Below, piece after piece: positions 3,967-29,860 of a stretch of DNA of 64,000 nt (position 1 is its first letter; each line of letters begins with the position of its first letter). The notes beneath the pieces are model-generated. The model was given only the letters and a program-made list of their open reading frames with translations, searched no databases and was not told where the DNA came from. The translations under genes were made by a program, and so were the position numbers. The stretch lies in IMG/VR virus record IMGVR_UViG_3300035201_000245, positions 1 to 64,000 of that record. One strand, given 5' to 3'. This DNA comes from a virus.

Positions 3967-5628
3967 TTATTGCGTAAGACCACCACCACTATCAGAACAT
4001 CCACCAGGACCACTATTGACACCATCAGAATAGGTATCACCAAAATCATTTGCATTTCCTGTAGTTGCTATGTTTACATATTCAATTGTATTGGTCCTAG
4101 AAGGAGAAGATGGAGTCCAACCACCATAAACACCTCCACGAACACAATTACTAAATCGACCAGGCCAACCTTTTATTGCACCTAAATCACCAAAATCAGT
4201 TGTATTACCTGTTGTTGCAATCGTTATATATTCAATAATATTCTTATCAGCACCATCATATCCTGCAGCATAACATCCACGAGTATTACTAGACCAGGCT
4301 GTTAGTCCGTGACGAGCATCAACAATATCACCAAAATCAGTAGCATTACCTGTAGATGCAATCGTTATATACTCCATTGTATTGGTATCATTACTAGCAG
4401 TACCACCAGCTTGTACACCACGAGTAGGAGATGAACACGCTGATGTATTACGAGTTGCAGCAACCAAATCACCAAAATCTGTTGTGTTTGCTGTTGTTGC
4501 AAATGTTAAATATTGAATTGTATTTAAATTAGTAGGAGTTCTACCACCCATCATTATTCCACGAGTATCACTACCACAAGAACCTGATCCACTATTGACC
4601 TGTAAAGAATCACCAAAATCTGTTGCATTACCTGTTGTTGTAAATGTTATATAATCTAAAGTATTAACACGAGTTGGAGTTGCTCCACCACAAAATACTC
4701 CACGAGTTGCTGATCCACAAGCTGAAAGTTCTACTCTTGCTGCTGTTAAACTACCAAAACTAACTGCATTTCCTGTTGATTGAATTGTTATATAATCTAC
4801 CCTACTTAAAGCACTTGGGTTTCCACCACCACCAAATACTGCACGACCTCTACCTCTCTGTGTTGTATCTCCTGTTGGAAAATACATATGTCCTGGAGTA
4901 TTAATCTTAACATCTCCATTAAATACTACTCCCTCATCTATTCCTACTGGTGGAACTTTTTTATGTTGAATAGGTTGTCCTGCAGCAAGTTTTCCATAAC
5001 CAGTAATAGTCTTTCCTGTTGCTTCTTGTGTTGGATCATTAGAATCCTGACAACAAAGAAGAACTGTTCCATCAATTACTGTTAGTTTTTCTGTTGGTGG
5101 TGTGAATGCTGCTGTATAAAGTGCAGTTCCTTTAATTACACGTAAATTGGAAATATACCCTTTAAATGCACCTTCAGTAGCCGACCTTGCTCCAACAATA
5201 AAAGCACCAGAACTTGCAACTGAACCAGAGTTAGTTGTTGAATCAACTTCCACTCCATTTACAAATGCTTTTAATGTTGTTCCTGATCTAGCAAGTGCAA
5301 TATGAGTCCAAACATTAAGACCTGGTTTATATGTTGATCTTTCATCAGTTCCAGAAACTAATGAACCAGTTAAACCAGTTCCATCAGATGTAATATACCA
5401 TCCTAATTGTCCTCCATTAGAATCAAATACCCTTTGACTATATCCACCTTCCGCATGACTATAATCTGTTGTATATATCCAGCATTCTACAGTAAAAGCA
5501 CCTGTTCCCATCGCAAAATCTGTATTAGCTGCAAGACTTAAATAATCATCTCCATTAAAAATTACTGATCCATCAATAGCATTTCTTCCGCCAGTTCCAC
5601 ATACATTGTTTGCTCTTAAATTTGCCAT
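3967..5628 (-). CDS. LamG-domain plus six-repeat adhesin/tail fibre-like protein
   Basis: A 553-residue protein with the same order as the 1252-2952 gene: a LamG-like jelly roll at about residues 28-200 (FTVECWIY, WTHIALARSGTT, AFVNGVEV, LLCCQDS) followed by six propeller-type repeats and an unusual end, SDSGGGLTQ, in which the conserved HGG is altered. A CAATAAATA late-promoter-like box sits close to its 3' end, ahead of the 2952-3944 gene. The paired LamG architectures suggest duplication within the array. Confidence 0.8.
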   Translation of the reverse strand: MANLRANNVCGTGGRNAIDGSVIFNGDDYLSLAANTDFAMGTGAFTVECWIYTTDYSHAEGGYSQRVFDSNGGQLGWYITSDGTGLTGSLVSGTDERSTYKPGLNVWTHIALARSGTTLKAFVNGVEVDSTTNSGSVASSGAFIVGARSATEGAFKGYISNLRVIKGTALYTAAFTPPTEKLTVIDGTVLLCCQDSNDPTQEATGKTITGYGKLAAGQPIQHKKVPPVGIDEGVVFNGDVKINTPGHMYFPTGDTTQRGRGRAVFGGGGNPSALSRVDYITIQSTGNAVSFGSLTAARVELSACGSATRGVFCGGATPTRVNTLDYITFTTTGNATDFGDSLQVNSGSGSCGSDTRGIMMGGRTPTNLNTIQYLTFATTANTTDFGDLVAATRNTSACSSPTRGVQAGGTASNDTNTMEYITIASTGNATDFGDIVDARHGLTAWSSNTRGCYAAGYDGADKNIIEYITIATTGNTTDFGDLGAIKGWPGRFSNCVRGGVYGGWTPSSPSRTNTIEYVNIATTGNANDFGDTYSDGVNSGPGGCSDSGGGLTQ

Positions 5629-25265: not shown

Positions 25266-26678
25266 TTATGTAGCAGCCAATCGAATAAAGATAAATCCAG
25301 TGTAAGTATATGTAGTATGTCCTTCAAGATACTCACCACCTTGACCAGCACCAAAATTAAAGGCTACTTTAACATTACTAGTACTAGTAACATCAATTAA
25401 CGCATTTGTGCCTATATTACCATATGAATCAGAACCTTGGTCATAAATTCCTTGAGCACCTACAGAAGCAGTAGCCCAGTTACTACCACCATCTGCTGTG
25501 TATCTAATTTGTAAAGTGTTTGTTTGAGAATGGTTAGCAGAATAAACATTACCAAAAGCATGTACCCAATAAAGTCCTGTAGCTGGGAATGTAAATACAC
25601 CACTACTCTCCGTCATTCCAGATCCAAGTAATGATCCAGTACCAAAACCATAAGTATCTACTCGTTCTAAATTAGAAGCAATTGGAAGTTGGTTTGCTTG
25701 CAAACTAGAACTTAATCTCCAAAAATCAGCTTGAGTTATACCACCAGCAGTTGCCCAAGAAACAGCAGAACCAGAACCACCAGATGTTAATACTTGACCT
25801 GATGTTCCATAATTTGCTCCAGCAATTCCAATTTCACCTGAAGTTCCTATACGAATTCTTTCTGTAAAAGTTGCTGCGGCATCAGCAGTACCAGAAGGAG
25901 CGTTATGGAAACTCCAAACTCCTGATTGTTGTCCAGTATAAGATGCAGTAGCAGTATTGTTATACTTCCAAGAAGTTCCCGTATATCTAGCATTAACAAC
26001 TGTATAAAAATTGACGTTACCAGAACCCCATATATTTGCATTACCATTAGCAAAATACAAACTATTTGCTTGTCCATCTGTCTCAGGAGTAGTTCCTAAT
26101 CCCATACTACCATCAGATGTGATGAGAAGTCTTTCTGAGCCATCATTGGTTCCAAAAGAAAGAGAATTAGTAGAGTGACTATAACTTACATAACCAGCAT
26201 ATTCAGCAGTGCCTGATGTTGCATCAGAGAAATAGATATTACCAGCATTACTTGTTCCACTTCTAATTGTTATTCCAGTAGCACCTGAAGTTGCAATTGT
26301 TAAATCATCTGCACTTGTATGTCCCTCAGTCGTGGTTCCTAAAAGTAATCTACCACTTGTATCAAGCCTAGCTACCTCTGTATGATTAGTTCTAAGAATT
26401 AAAGGATCATTACTTTTCGATCCTATAAACGTTCCTGTACTGTCTGCATATAATCTTCCATAACCAGATGTAATATCACCAAAATCAATCATCCCATTGG
26501 AACCACTGTCAACTTCTATGTTCCCAGAAAACTTTGCTGTTCCACTTGAGTCAATACGAACCCTCTCATCACCATTTGTTCCTAATGTCAGGGTATTACT
26601 TGCAGGAGAATGTACTGATGCCCCTGCACCTACCGTGACGGTTCCATTTCCAGCAACACCAACCTGTAAATTAGCCAT
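25266..26678 (-). CDS. Tail fibre-like protein with C1q-like head
   Basis: A 470-residue fibre that starts MANLQVGVAGNGTVTVGAGA. It has repeated RVRID/ERLLI turns, the linker GIAGANYGTSGQVLTSGGSG at about residue 290 and a C1q-like C-terminal head (GVFTFPATGLYWVHAFG, DGGSNWATASVG, DVTSTSNVKVAFNF, GFIFIRLAAT). Linker and head match the 23260-24774 protein in order and spacing. It is most likely a trimeric receptor-contact fibre. A CATAAATA late-promoter-like box lies near 26703-26710. Confidence 0.75.
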   Translation of the reverse strand: MANLQVGVAGNGTVTVGAGASVHSPASNTLTLGTNGDERVRIDSSGTAKFSGNIEVDSGSNGMIDFGDITSGYGRLYADSTGTFIGSKSNDPLILRTNHTEVARLDTSGRLLLGTTTEGHTSADDLTIATSGATGITIRSGTSNAGNIYFSDATSGTAEYAGYVSYSHSTNSLSFGTNDGSERLLITSDGSMGLGTTPETDGQANSLYFANGNANIWGSGNVNFYTVVNARYTGTSWKYNNTATASYTGQQSGVWSFHNAPSGTADAAATFTERIRIGTSGEIGIAGANYGTSGQVLTSGGSGSAVSWATAGGITQADFWRLSSSLQANQLPIASNLERVDTYGFGTGSLLGSGMTESSGVFTFPATGLYWVHAFGNVYSANHSQTNTLQIRYTADGGSNWATASVGAQGIYDQGSDSYGNIGTNALIDVTSTSNVKVAFNFGAGQGGEYLEGHTTYTYTGFIFIRLAAT

Positions 26679-26704
26679 TTATCAGATAATCCTATTTTTT
26701 GTAT

Positions 26705-27217
26705 TTATGCTATAAGTAGGGTACATCCTGCTTCCACAGTAATCCCAATTCCTGCAGCAACTTGTACAGGACCTACTAATATTGCGTTCTTACCTGCAGG
26801 TAATGTTATATTCTTATCAATAACCTGATCAAGCATTAACATACCATCATATATGGAAACATTACCATGTGCCTGAACTGCACCTTCTGAAGTAGCAGCA
26901 CCAGCAGCAATTCCTTTAACACCAGTAGTATTAATACCAGCAACCTTAATTGTGCTGACACCAACTGAATCTTCTGTCCAGACACCAGCAGCAACACCTG
27001 TTAATAATGAACCATCACCAACAAAAGCATTCGCAGTAACTATACCCGCAAAAGTAGAGTTACCTCCGTTATATATCCCAATCGTTACGGCACTTCCTAC
27101 TCGAAATCCAGATGCAGCAGTTACAATTCCAGTAGTATTAATCTGCTGTCCTTCAATGGTAAGACTGCCATCCGCTGCTGATAAAACATCGGTTTGTCCA
27201 TCTATGCGAATACCCAT
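26705..27217 (-). CDS. Short fibre-like virion protein
   Basis: A 170-residue protein that starts MGIRIDGQTDVLSAADGSLTIEGQQINTTG as short shaft strands and contains FVGDGSLLTGVAAG, the common fibre turn. Its last 80 residues (YDGMLMLDQVIDKNITL, GKNAILVGPVQV, GITVEAGCTLLI) resemble the end of the 752-residue fibre at 10672-12930. It lies just after a terminator and has a GATAAATAA late-promoter-like box about 25-35 bases upstream. It is probably a small trimeric virion component. Confidence 0.65.
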   Translation of the reverse strand: MGIRIDGQTDVLSAADGSLTIEGQQINTTGIVTAASGFRVGSAVTIGIYNGGNSTFAGIVTANAFVGDGSLLTGVAAGVWTEDSVGVSTIKVAGINTTGVKGIAAGAATSEGAVQAHGNVSIYDGMLMLDQVIDKNITLPAGKNAILVGPVQVAAGIGITVEAGCTLLIA

Positions 27218-27261
27218 TTCTGCTTACACATAACTTTTTTATTATTTATCAAAAAAGTAAT

Positions 27262-27300
27262 AGGGCGAAAAAATTGCCGCGATTTTTATCGCCCTTTTTT
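27262..27300. terminator. Rho-independent terminator, element T1 (possibly bidirectional)
   Basis: A 7-bp outer stem AGGGCGA/TCGCCCT encloses an A/T-rich inner stem and is followed by TTTTTT on the plus strand and by ATTACTTTTTT on the minus strand. It lies directly after the 83-residue gene in the leftward direction. A near copy lies at 45312-45350. Confidence 0.7.
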
Positions 27301-27304
27301 GGAA

Positions 27305-27556
27305 TCAAAAGTCGTTTTTCCCTGAGGATATTGGATCTGCATACACTAACCTCTCTTCAGGACAGGTAGCACGTACCAACTCCAACACATTCATAAACTG
27401 TTCTGTATCATCACACACTACCGTCTTAGTATCCCCTTCATTAGAATATAAGTAGAAAGTTTTCTTTGTAGGGTCAACCACACACTTCATTAAATATTCT
27501 TCATCTTCATACTGAATATTATCTTCTCCTAGATCAGGCCTTTGATTCTCTTCCAT
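27305..27556 (-). CDS. Conserved small cyanophage protein, unknown function
   Basis: An 83-residue protein starting MEENQRPDLGEDNIQYEDEE. The start at 27556 is chosen because GGAG lies seven bases upstream. The sequence is acidic, with a strand-rich middle (YLMKCVVDPTKKTFYLYSNEGDTKTV) and DTEQFMNVLELVRATCP near the end. No known domain was recognised. It is the only protein gene of a separate transcription unit: strong promoter at 27773-27801, structured leader of about 210 nt, this gene, terminator T1. That isolation within late fibre genes suggests early or regulated expression. Confidence 0.7.
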   Translation of the reverse strand: MEENQRPDLGEDNIQYEDEEYLMKCVVDPTKKTFYLYSNEGDTKTVVCDDTEQFMNVLELVRATCPEERLVYADPISSGKNDF

Positions 27557-27766
27557 AGAAGTCTCCAAAATAGTTGTGTGGGAGGTTGGATTCCTGTTTA
27601 CCAACAAGAGCAGGGCATTTCTACAGTTTAGAATTACCACTCTGCCTACGACCTACTTGGTATGTAGTTCTGTCTCAAGGACAGCGAGCACCACCTCTGT
27701 CGTATCACCTTAACCAGCTATATGCCAGTAAGTTTATTCAGTCACTCCCTATGTTGTGCGCTCAAC
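27557..27766 (-). ncRNA. Structured leader RNA or small RNA, cloverleaf-like core
   Basis: The gap between the 83-residue gene and its promoter has no convincing protein but several perfect stems. Reading leftward: a 5-bp hairpin at the transcript start (27752-27767); a 6-bp stem TACGAC/GTCGTA (27699-27704 with 27647-27652) that encloses a short GAG/CTC arm, a CTGTC-CTTGA-GACAG hairpin (27670-27684) and a CTAC-7nt-GTAG hairpin (27653-27667); a GGCA/TGCC stem enclosing TTCTA-AACTG-TAGAA (27614-27646); and a GTTGG/CCAAC hairpin (27585-27605). Base composition is visibly less AT-rich than the neighbours. It resembles no riboswitch or tRNA that I can name. Confidence 0.5.
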
Positions 27767-27772
27767 AAAGAT

Positions 27773-27801
27773 AATATAGCACTATAATTAGGTCTTGTCA
27801 A
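27773..27801 (-). promoter_or_regulatory. Sigma70-like promoter TTGACA-17-TATATT
   Basis: A perfect -35 TTGACA (27796-27801), a 17-bp spacer and -10 TATATT (27773-27778) face leftward. The -35 box overlaps the stop codon of the oxygenase gene. The expected start is near 27766, about 210 bases before the next ATG. Such a host-type promoter inside a late structural block is unexpected. Confidence 0.7.
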
Positions 27802-28331
27802 GGGTTAGAAATAAACGACTCTTCAGATGAAATAAAATTTCCCGCAATAATATATCGTCCTTCACATTCATTAGAAGGAATATAATGACGCAATCTACTC
27901 TCAAAAATAATAACCTTTCCATTCTCTGCTTTAATTTCATGTCCAGAAGTTGGAAAAACTAAAGGAGAAGACCCATCAGGAGCATTAACATAATAAACAA
28001 AAGAAAAATAATTAGGAGTAGATGAATCAATAACATCACCCTGCTTATGAGTGTGAGTATTAATATAATCTCCTTTATTATAAATTACACCCCATGCTTC
28101 TGAGCACACTAACGGAATATCAACAATATCATCACAAATTTTCTTATGTATCCATTCTAATAAAGATTTAACCTCATCAGGTTCTTCCTTAAAATAAGTA
28201 ATATAATATTTGCTATTAGGACCTTCAACTCTAAGTTTATTTTCTTCAATTAAATTATGAAAAATAGGATTACTAGTACTGGATGCAGGATAAAAGCATT
28301 CCAGTACATGTAAATCTTCAGAAAGTTTCAT
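27798..28331 (-). CDS. 2OG-Fe(II) oxygenase-like protein
   Basis: A 177-residue protein with the core of the short 2-oxoglutarate/Fe(II) oxygenases found in marine phages. Candidate metal ligands are H93 and H95 or D99 (segment NTHTHKQGD) and H149 (RLRHYIPS), with R159 as the candidate 2-oxoglutarate ligand. The strand FSFVYYVNAPDGSSPLVFP is typical of this group. In cyanophages such genes are often near structural genes and may hydroxylate a protein or nucleotide; the substrate is unknown. Its last codon overlaps the TTGACA of the downstream promoter. Confidence 0.75.
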   Translation of the reverse strand: MKLSEDLHVLECFYPASSTSNPIFHNLIEENKLRVEGPNSKYYITYFKEEPDEVKSLLEWIHKKICDDIVDIPLVCSEAWGVIYNKGDYINTHTHKQGDVIDSSTPNYFSFVYYVNAPDGSSPLVFPTSGHEIKAENGKVIIFESRLRHYIPSNECEGRYIIAGNFISSEESFISNP

Positions 28332-29239
28332 TACATAGTAAAGGTATTACGTGAACCTCTATATTTCTCATCCAATAGATTTCTATCAGGATCAAGGGGA
28401 TCAAAGTTCCTATGGTTAGGATCAGGATAATCTTCCCAAGTCTCACCCTCATATTCTACATGTAATGGGTTAATATCCTTTCTTTCTCCATATACATGAT
28501 AAAAACAATCAATTGGTAATCCACCTTGAGCTTGAAGATGTATAAATTCATCATCCCATCTCTTCACAATAATATCCTGATGAGATCCAATAGGTTGAAG
28601 TTGAACTGAAATACTATCTGTATGAACTAAACCTTTCCAATAATCTGGTATTTTTATTGCCTTTTGATTCCTACACCTTCCTCTAAAATATACACCAACT
28701 TCTGGACCCTCAATACAAGCATGAGCAAGTCTCCATCCCTGTCCCTTGGTGGGATGAACCATATCAAAAACTTTACCCAAGGAATCAGCAGTTCCAAATC
28801 TAGAAGCAAGTCTTCCTTTATTATCACCATCTATCTTACCACTAACGTATAAATCACCCTCAACATAAAGAGCATTATCTGATGATCCACCTGTTACATA
28901 TAAACCATTAGCAGTCTGCCCATTACCTATTATCTCTTGATTACCTTCAACATTAACTGCCCAAGGAGTTCCACTATCACCTTCTACATGAACATTACCT
29001 CTTGTATTAAGTGCTCTAGGTGTCGGTTTAGTATCTGTTCGACCAATCATTACAGTCGCAGTACCTGGATAATCACCTGCTCCAAAATCATCAACCGCAC
29101 CAACCTGAAGTGATCCTTGAATATAAGAGGACCACTTAATTTTTTCTGCACCAACCCCCAATACTTTTGGTGTAGTAAAAGGTTTTGCAACTACATGTTG
29201 ACCATTATAAACCCATTGTTCATCAATAGAAAATGCCAT
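28331..29239 (-). CDS. Cyanophage virion structural protein
   Basis: A 302-residue protein downstream of the hub genes. Residues about 25-140 are fibre-like strands (YIQGSLQVGAVDDFG, ALNTRGNVHVEGDSG, ALYVEGDLYVSGKI). Residues about 165-250 form a distinct domain, WRLAHACIEGPEVGVYFRGR and IKIPDYWKGLVHTDSI, known at the C-terminus of several cyanophage tail proteins. It ends in a charged tail. Placement between the gp5 block and the fibre genes suggests a baseplate-fibre connector, which is inference. Confidence 0.7.
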   Translation of the reverse strand: MAFSIDEQWVYNGQHVVAKPFTTPKVLGVGAEKIKWSSYIQGSLQVGAVDDFGAGDYPGTATVMIGRTDTKPTPRALNTRGNVHVEGDSGTPWAVNVEGNQEIIGNGQTANGLYVTGGSSDNALYVEGDLYVSGKIDGDNKGRLASRFGTADSLGKVFDMVHPTKGQGWRLAHACIEGPEVGVYFRGRCRNQKAIKIPDYWKGLVHTDSISVQLQPIGSHQDIIVKRWDDEFIHLQAQGGLPIDCFYHVYGERKDINPLHVEYEGETWEDYPDPNHRNFDPLDPDRNLLDEKYRGSRNTFTM

Positions 29240-29248
29240 ATTTACCTC

Positions 29249-29860
29249 CTAGCCGTTTTGAATTTGTGTTCCTGGTTTGGGCATCGTACCAGGTATAGAT
29301 GCTGCTGTTACCCCTGTTATAAGAGGAGAAATAATATGAACCCCCAACAAACCACTTAAAGTCAGAATTCCTGTACTCACTATTTTATATGATTGCTTAC
29401 CATCTATTGTAATATTCTTTGAGTCAAGTTTAATACTCTCATACCCATTAATCTCAACCCTTCCATGATCTGGTGGTTGACCTGTTGCAACCATCTCTAT
29501 ATCATGGGCCTCCATTCTAATTTTACCATTCGCTGCTTTCAATTGAATGTCACCATTCTTTGCAATAACAACAAAGGCTTCCTTCTCACAGATACCTTCT
29601 GGTGGATCACTTCCTTCAGGAACTGCTGCTAAATCTTCTCCTGTGTGAATCATTGTTGCACCAGGAGAATTCATTACAGTCCATCCTGTACGAACCCCAT
29701 CCTCATCTAAAGATAAGAAATGCCTACCATCTAGTCCTTTTAATTCTACACTAGAAGTAACATCATCTCTTGGACTCAAAGCACCAAATTGAATCATGCC
29801 ATTCATAGCACTCCAGGCTTGTACCCAGAAATTCTTTTTTGGTCCTGCGTTACCTGACAT
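29249..29860 (-). CDS. Probable baseplate/tail structural protein
   Basis: A 203-residue protein, beta-rich, with GDIQLKAANGKIRMEAHDIEM followed by repeating short strands (VEINGYESIKL, NITIDGKQSYKIVST). The strand pattern recalls the beta-helical needle part of tail spikes such as the C-terminal region of T4 gp5, and the gene lies close to gp5. In this phage the spike function might be split off into this protein; this is a structural guess. The sequence shows no enzymatic motif. Confidence 0.6.
   Translation of the reverse strand: MSGNAGPKKNFWVQAWSAMNGMIQFGALSPRDDVTSSVELKGLDGRHFLSLDEDGVRTGWTVMNSPGATMIHTGEDLAAVPEGSDPPEGICEKEAFVVIAKNGDIQLKAANGKIRMEAHDIEMVATGQPPDHGRVEINGYESIKLDSKNITIDGKQSYKIVSTGILTLSGLLGVHIISPLITGVTAASIPGTMPKPGTQIQNG

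Follow-up and report, generated by a model that had tools for sequence, protein, structure and literature searches.

The structured stretch behind a host-type promoter in the window, by which we mean the whole 64,000-nt piece of cyanophage DNA analysed here, is a full-length member of a known RNA family, manA (Rfam RF01745). The family itself has been described before; what is new is the evidence opposing its standard reading as a riboswitch. The window copy has a conserved fold, its 5' boundary lies at the predicted +1, and relatives of it occupy tRNA-gene slots within tRNA arrays. As a whole, these comparisons suggest a free-standing RNA, a reading that we argue for rather than prove. The functional unit is probably a discrete, stable non-coding RNA of ~190-210 nt, which has its own host-type promoter here and acts in trans. 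We also lean toward a broader description of manA as a free-standing, tRNA-array-compatible, trans-acting RNA of cyanophage infection, a cousin of GOLLD and ROOL in kind and not by descent, present in one copy per genome, either among arrayed tRNA genes or downstream of a dedicated +1 promoter, and mobile between sites.

Viruses that infect the main photosynthetic organisms of the ocean commonly carry manA, which has been catalogued for some 15 years as an orphan candidate riboswitch. Should manA prove to be a free RNA, the appropriate experiments would be phage genetics and RNA-protein pull-downs, and hunts for a ligand would be misdirected. The RNA would then also be a compact (~200 nt) and tractable addition to the puzzling phage non-coding RNAs that travel with tRNA genes.

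Identity and layout of the window RNA

The window derives from the 66-kb record of a cyanophage that carries psbA along with structural genes of the T4 type. On the minus strand, the manA model aligns over 193 nt (27575-27767) and is covered from position 1 to 192, with a score of 161 bits (E 7.9e-43) against a gathering score of 55.2; the R1 model gives 180 bits. The first-pass annotation had proposed a new, undescribed RNA and a check against the Rfam covariance models. This check returns manA and thereby rules an undescribed RNA out. The same RNA, with the same helices and in the same cyanophage setting, was found in marine metagenomes and cyanophages by Weinberg et al. in 2010, who suggested a riboswitch and marked the pseudoknot with a '?' (PMC2864571), and it is carried by many cyanophages. 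The RF01745 entry files manA as cis-regulatory, a probable riboswitch and riboswitch candidate of cyanophages; the present comparison contributes the copies in tRNA arrays, the hairpin start fixed at +1, the exchange of sites between close relatives and a pseudoknot that is now firm. The manA-II motif, a Leptotrichia riboswitch candidate located upstream of manA and pflA-like genes (PMC11109978), is a different RNA, alike in name alone.

No other Rfam family matches in the window, the GOLLD and ROOL models included. ARAGORN finds no tRNA gene in the window, and neither ARAGORN nor the Rfam tRNA model recognises a cloverleaf in the window RNA. The earlier idea of a tRNA-like element thus fails as homology, although manA relatives do sit in tRNA arrays.

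The host-type promoter noticed in the first pass is confirmed at 27801-27773 on the minus strand. Its sigma-70-type -35 hexamer TTGACA (27796-27801), whose position is kept by 150 of the 153 distinct relatives of the promoter class among the matches listed, is separated by a 17-nt spacer from the -10 hexamer TATATT (27773-27778), which is preceded by TG. With 11 of 12 matches, it is the top promoter-like site within 26000-29500. The start of the manA model (27767) and the position of the -10 hexamer concur on a predicted transcription start at ~27766-27767, in agreement with the start near 27766 proposed earlier, and the 5'-terminal hairpin (UGUUG-AGCGCA-CAACA, 27752-27767, minus strand) begins at this predicted +1. 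Early synthesis of the window RNA from the sigma-70 promoter, as had been supposed, is plausible.

The original delimitation of the element to 27557-27801 was essentially right, comprising the promoter, the RNA and a short spacer. Its lower AT content holds as well, with ~43% GC in the manA region versus 28-42% in the surroundings. Downstream on the same strand, a direct reading of the sequence places a GGAG Shine-Dalgarno (27563-27566) before the 83-aa gene (27305-27556), a cyanomyovirus gene of unknown function encoding DUF7294 (PF23966, phrog_662), and one or more terminator-like hairpins behind it (27264-27292, with a minus-strand stem at 27279-27292), much as the first reading of an 83-residue gene followed by a terminator had it.

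Structure and covariation

Folded alone, the window RNA has an energy no better than that of shuffled sequences (z -0.39). The lone-sequence fold is therefore uninformative, and evidence for the manA structure has to be comparative. In the main covariation set of 57 manA relatives below 94% identity, 27 of 46 pairs display changes on both sides, whereas shuffles average 13.0 and none reaches 27. With the diverged copies described below added, 35 of the 46 pairs change on both sides. Pairing is seen in 98.4% of the alignment cells in manA helices, and sliding the partners lowers this to 50% or less. Covariation across the homologous RNAs is overwhelming, pseudoknot included, and the structured leader with at least six stems recognised at first is a genuine conserved RNA, manA at full length. 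Chance stems without a conserved RNA would agree with the unremarkable folding energy of the lone sequence; the Rfam match (E 8e-43) and covariation beyond every shuffle already refute this explanation and leave it next to no probability.

The closing helix (helix 1) pairs GGGAG (27745-27749) with CUCCC (27580-27584), both on the minus strand, and covaries, taking the form GGGUG/CACCC in P-HM1, GGGUA/UACCC in S-B43 and GGAUG/CAUCC in ACG-2014f. Helix 4, in which UACGAC (27699-27704) pairs with GUCGUA (27647-27652) on the minus strand, encloses helices 5, 6 and 7, and compensatory changes occur at all six of its closing pairs. It corresponds to the 6-bp closing stem that had been noted around three arms with junctions of 1, 1 and 2 nt. 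The pseudoknot joins CUGU in a hairpin loop (27623-27626) to ACAG in the loop of the last arm (27594-27597), again on the minus strand. Four complementary bases are present at these positions in 31 of 32 relatives, via seven different sequence pairs (CUGU:ACAG, AUGU:ACAU, CUUU:GAAG, UGUC:GACA, UCUU:AAGA, CAUU:AAUG and GAUU:AAUC). Since seven different complements keep it, the '?' of 2010 can be removed. About 60 columns of the manA alignment are invariant.

We also asked whether the closing strand, CCUCC, might mimic an anti-Shine-Dalgarno or take part in switching, and rejected this, as downstream pairing with the closing strand is not in excess (mean z -0.32), in a test of limited power given that its SAM-I control is only weakly positive (mean z -1.15, 3 of 9 below -2). 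Moreover, the strand covaries to CACCC, UACCC and CAUCC, so that its sequence as such is not kept.

manA copies within tRNA arrays

A scan of phages unselected for manA revealed a diverged copy in S-B43 (82.5 bits), flanked on both sides by a tRNA at a distance of 1 nt. Array loci were gathered with a pattern of the S-B43 subgroup, chosen regardless of tRNAs, and by BLAST with its members. The ten resulting loci, which constitute the diverged subgroup, belong to S-B43, ACG-2014f, S-CREM1 and seven IMG/VR contigs. A tRNA adjoins manA on at least one side in all ten and on both sides in eight. Upstream and downstream of manA lie tRNA-Arg and tRNA-Thr in S-B43 and L346, Arg and Asn in ACG-2014f and L347, Arg and Val in L348 and L349, Met and Asn in L352, and Leu and Asn in S-CREM1, whose depositors annotate both RNAs and label manA cis-regulatory (PMC9964418). 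In L350, manA lies between a tRNA and an ORF, and in L351 it follows a tRNA-like 3' half and precedes tRNA-Asn. The tRNA partners are varied, with Arg, Met, Thr and Leu found before manA and Thr, Asn and Val after it. manA begins 1-2 nt behind the tRNA upstream of it, its distance to the tRNA downstream ranges from -2 to +1 nt, and no promoter precedes the array copies (6-7 of 12 matches).

These copies align with the model of the promoter class over its whole length (E 1e-10 to 1e-16), with Rfam scores of 72-90 bits versus 140-197 for promoter-class copies. As they are diverged, applying their behaviour to the window copy is a step of inference; a position in or next to a tRNA island is true of all ten diverged copies, and no tRNA was found in the window itself. 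Given these tRNA neighbours, a search for the role of manA would best begin with translation or tRNA metabolism.

The published hypothesis holds that manA is a cis-acting metabolite riboswitch in a 5' UTR, where a ligand alters transcription or translation of the next gene. Such placement is true in the window and untrue for the tRNA-array copies, which have neither a promoter nor an mRNA to control. An RNA wedged between two tRNA genes is hardly explained by a 5' UTR riboswitch.

Promoter-driven copies

A scan of IMG/VR with one exact 20-mer gave at least 120 stretches. Among the matches listed, 150 of 153 distinct manA copies with enough upstream sequence are preceded by a sigma-70 promoter with at least 10 of 12 matches, compared with ~3 for shuffles. 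At least two of the three copies without such a promoter (L042 and L113) have a tRNA directly upstream, as read from the sequence. The 5' hairpin starts 4-6 nt after the -10 hexamer in 132 of the 150 promoter-class copies (among the matches listed), whatever the length of the hairpin. A start fixed relative to the -10 hexamer despite this varying length indicates that the transcript should begin with the hairpin. Of 110 promoter-class copies among the matches listed, 36 have an intrinsic terminator in the 120 nt that follow (3 for shuffles), one of the 36, in L064, being the 3' end of a tRNA rather than a terminator. In 842 kb of promoter-class loci, again among the matches listed, all 11 tRNAs found by ARAGORN lie within 100 nt of a manA, where 0.5 would be expected.

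The HK022 put RNA is a polymerase-modifying antitermination element. By analogy, manA might be a ligand-independent cis-acting 5' leader, either a put-like element that would help polymerase past the terminators behind it or a stabiliser whose hairpin at +1 protects from 5'-end-dependent decay. Such a leader would fit the hairpin at +1 in nearly all promoter-class copies and the terminators that directly follow about a third of them without competing pairing (both among the matches listed), as well as the strict coupling with strong promoters and the indifference to the downstream gene. However, a stabiliser needs neither ~60 invariant nucleotides nor a conserved pseudoknot, and within a tRNA array no terminator stands before the next tRNA, so that an antiterminator would have nothing to act on. 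We consider this explanation quite improbable.

The manA promoter often overlaps the intrinsic terminator of the upstream gene (GAGGGTGCTTGACACCCTCTTTTTTTATGCTATAAT), with the -35 hexamer inside the hairpin and the T tract inside the spacer; this is seen in L128 (2961-3016, P-HM1), L122, L125 and many others.

Downstream genes, change of site and copy number

The gene next to manA, examined for 197 copies among the matches listed, is gp32 in 48 and talC (transaldolase) in 44. HAD phosphatase (11), Hsp20 (11), a ManA-like cupin (11) and PurS (5) come next among the matches listed, and 2OG oxygenases, small unknowns, DUF7294 and tRNA-Asn, -Asp and -Gly are found as well. The names of these genes were read from the sequences, except where a phage record supplies them. 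They are unrelated and make up no coherent set. DUF7294 stands behind manA in the window and in two other loci (L014 and L193), and its homologues in seven other phages lie at the border of a tRNA island with no manA. A tie between manA and the 83-aa gene was rejected on account of these homologues, although L014 and L193 repeat the pairing.

The position of manA differs even between close relatives, being behind gp23 in P-HM1, where it has a terminator of its own, and before gp32 in P-HM2 (4771-4969). The two phages have reciprocal clean empty sites with flanks 77-92% identical, and before gp32 in P-HM1 only manA is missing, the promoter being still present. Exactly one copy is present in each of 14 manA-bearing complete genomes. 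As manA is absent from seven of eight phages not selected for it, a rare element would usually be single anyway; single copy is therefore only mild evidence and too weak as proof of action in trans. manA is often located near gp23-uvsY. A role as replication origin was set aside, as many relatives lack manA.

Occurrence outside phages

A pattern scan of 84,980 bacterial and archaeal species genomes gave 52 matches, of which three are true manA. All three are on contigs that carry T4-like phage genes and are phage-like by gene content, and one of these contigs accounts for the only genome with manA among 400 of the host family, the other 399 having none. In 395 genomes of a single order, with only a few candidates scored in each, we did not recover the gamma-proteobacterial copies described in 2010. 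With all three true copies of the pattern scan on phage-like contigs, bacterial manA was rejected, and manA is essentially phage-only. Two flavobacterial Wenyingzhuangia genomes (L157 4704-4841 and L175 1520-1657) match the manA model weakly (21 bits, E 8e-4) and contain at most possible homologues.

Mode of action

The riboswitch proposed by Weinberg et al. (PMC2864571) is what the first-pass annotation had in mind with a riboswitch-like leader, and several features speak for it. Protein genes lie downstream at most promoter-class loci and terminators behind about a third of the copies (both among the matches listed), and the ~60 invariant columns resemble a binding pocket. In the window, the Shine-Dalgarno lies ~13 nt past manA, and an unfolded CUCCC closing strand could mask its GGAG. 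The comparative evidence nevertheless opposes a riboswitch as the general function. Besides the array copies, no conserved expression platform was found and no excess complementarity to the closing strand, many downstream genes lack a Shine-Dalgarno, these genes share no common pathway and include tRNAs, and the host family is without manA apart from the phage contig. We therefore regard the riboswitch as rather unlikely.

A discrete RNA, by comparison, accounts for both classes: their boundaries are the same, it does not matter which gene lies next to them, the element is portable, and no expression platform is seen to be shared. If manA is such an RNA, host RNA polymerase would initiate at ~27766 early in infection and thereby set its 5' end. 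manA would fold while transcription continues through DUF7294 to the hairpin at 27292-27264, and the manA part, released or acting at the 5' end, would presumably be the functional product. In that case DUF7294, the 83-aa gene, would share the transcript as a neighbour and not be a regulated target. In array phages, the 5' end would be set by 3'-end maturation of the upstream tRNA. The 3' boundary common to both classes would be just past the closing helix, and in other phages the 3' end might be generated by an RNase P cut of the next tRNA, a terminator or cleavage, or transcription might read through into the gene. manA probably has a role in early or middle takeover.

Against a stand-alone RNA, most promoter-class copies, that of the window included, precede a gene in the same orientation and often lack a terminator. 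In addition, gp32 and talC recur too often for chance, so that a cis role, as stabiliser, antiterminator or switch, is possible for the promoter class.

RNAs C and D of phage T4 are small stable RNAs of unknown function encoded within its tRNA cluster. manA resembles them as a small RNA within a tRNA cluster of the T4 family, a likeness by description that serves as a lead only. GOLLD and ROOL, non-coding RNAs of phages and prophages near tRNA islands (PMC12286853), are like manA phage-encoded, elaborate and pseudoknotted, located at or in tRNA islands and free of a fixed protein gene. They have no relation to it by sequence or by structure and are several times its size (GOLLD often exceeds 800 nt).

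Elements found alongside manA

The wcaG RNA, another cyanophage motif termed cis-regulatory, shares tRNA islands with manA in S-CREM1 (L353, 724-821), L349 (5454-5551) and L346 (1181-1271); in S-CREM1 it lies 48 nt before tRNA-Met. It may deserve the same re-examination as manA.

A glutamine riboswitch or PhotoRC-II is found near some manA copies, with matches to the Glutamine and Glutamine-II aptamers that include L129 (2557-2609) and L016 (312-360). The glutamine-riboswitch-like sequence CGUUCAUCC, read from the sequence, follows shortly behind manA, after pstS in P-SSM3 and P-SSM4 (L127, L124 and L054).

About a quarter of the promoter-class manA copies among the matches listed are followed, at a distance of 8-19 nt, by a conserved hairpin, CC-UAA-GA-UGC-AACU...AGUSGG-GCA-GA-UGG. 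Its pattern, CCUAAGAUGCAACU-N-AGUSGGGCAGAUGG, contains a kink-turn-like internal loop and often continues into a U tract. Examples are L009 524-552, L011 3494-3523, L019 8953-8982 and L030 4581-4610, and ~115 other viral contigs carry it; the window does not. All 104 testable copies of the exact pattern stand behind a manA. Among 65 distinct copies, 46 have a U-rich tail, and the hairpin has one covarying outer pair and a varying apical pair. In the 11 loci scanned it reaches the gathering score of no Rfam family, and it may be a 3' domain of manA RNA that has so far gone undescribed, or a terminator specialised for this RNA.

Spurious small ORFs are annotated within manA in L131 (3055-3229, PHM2_011 and PHM2_012 of P-HM2), L128 (2981-3157), L127 (3074-3247) and L132 (3005-3211). 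Expression values given for such ORFs in published data sets would report manA RNA. RNA-seq of P-HM2 infection has been published (PMC5082946).
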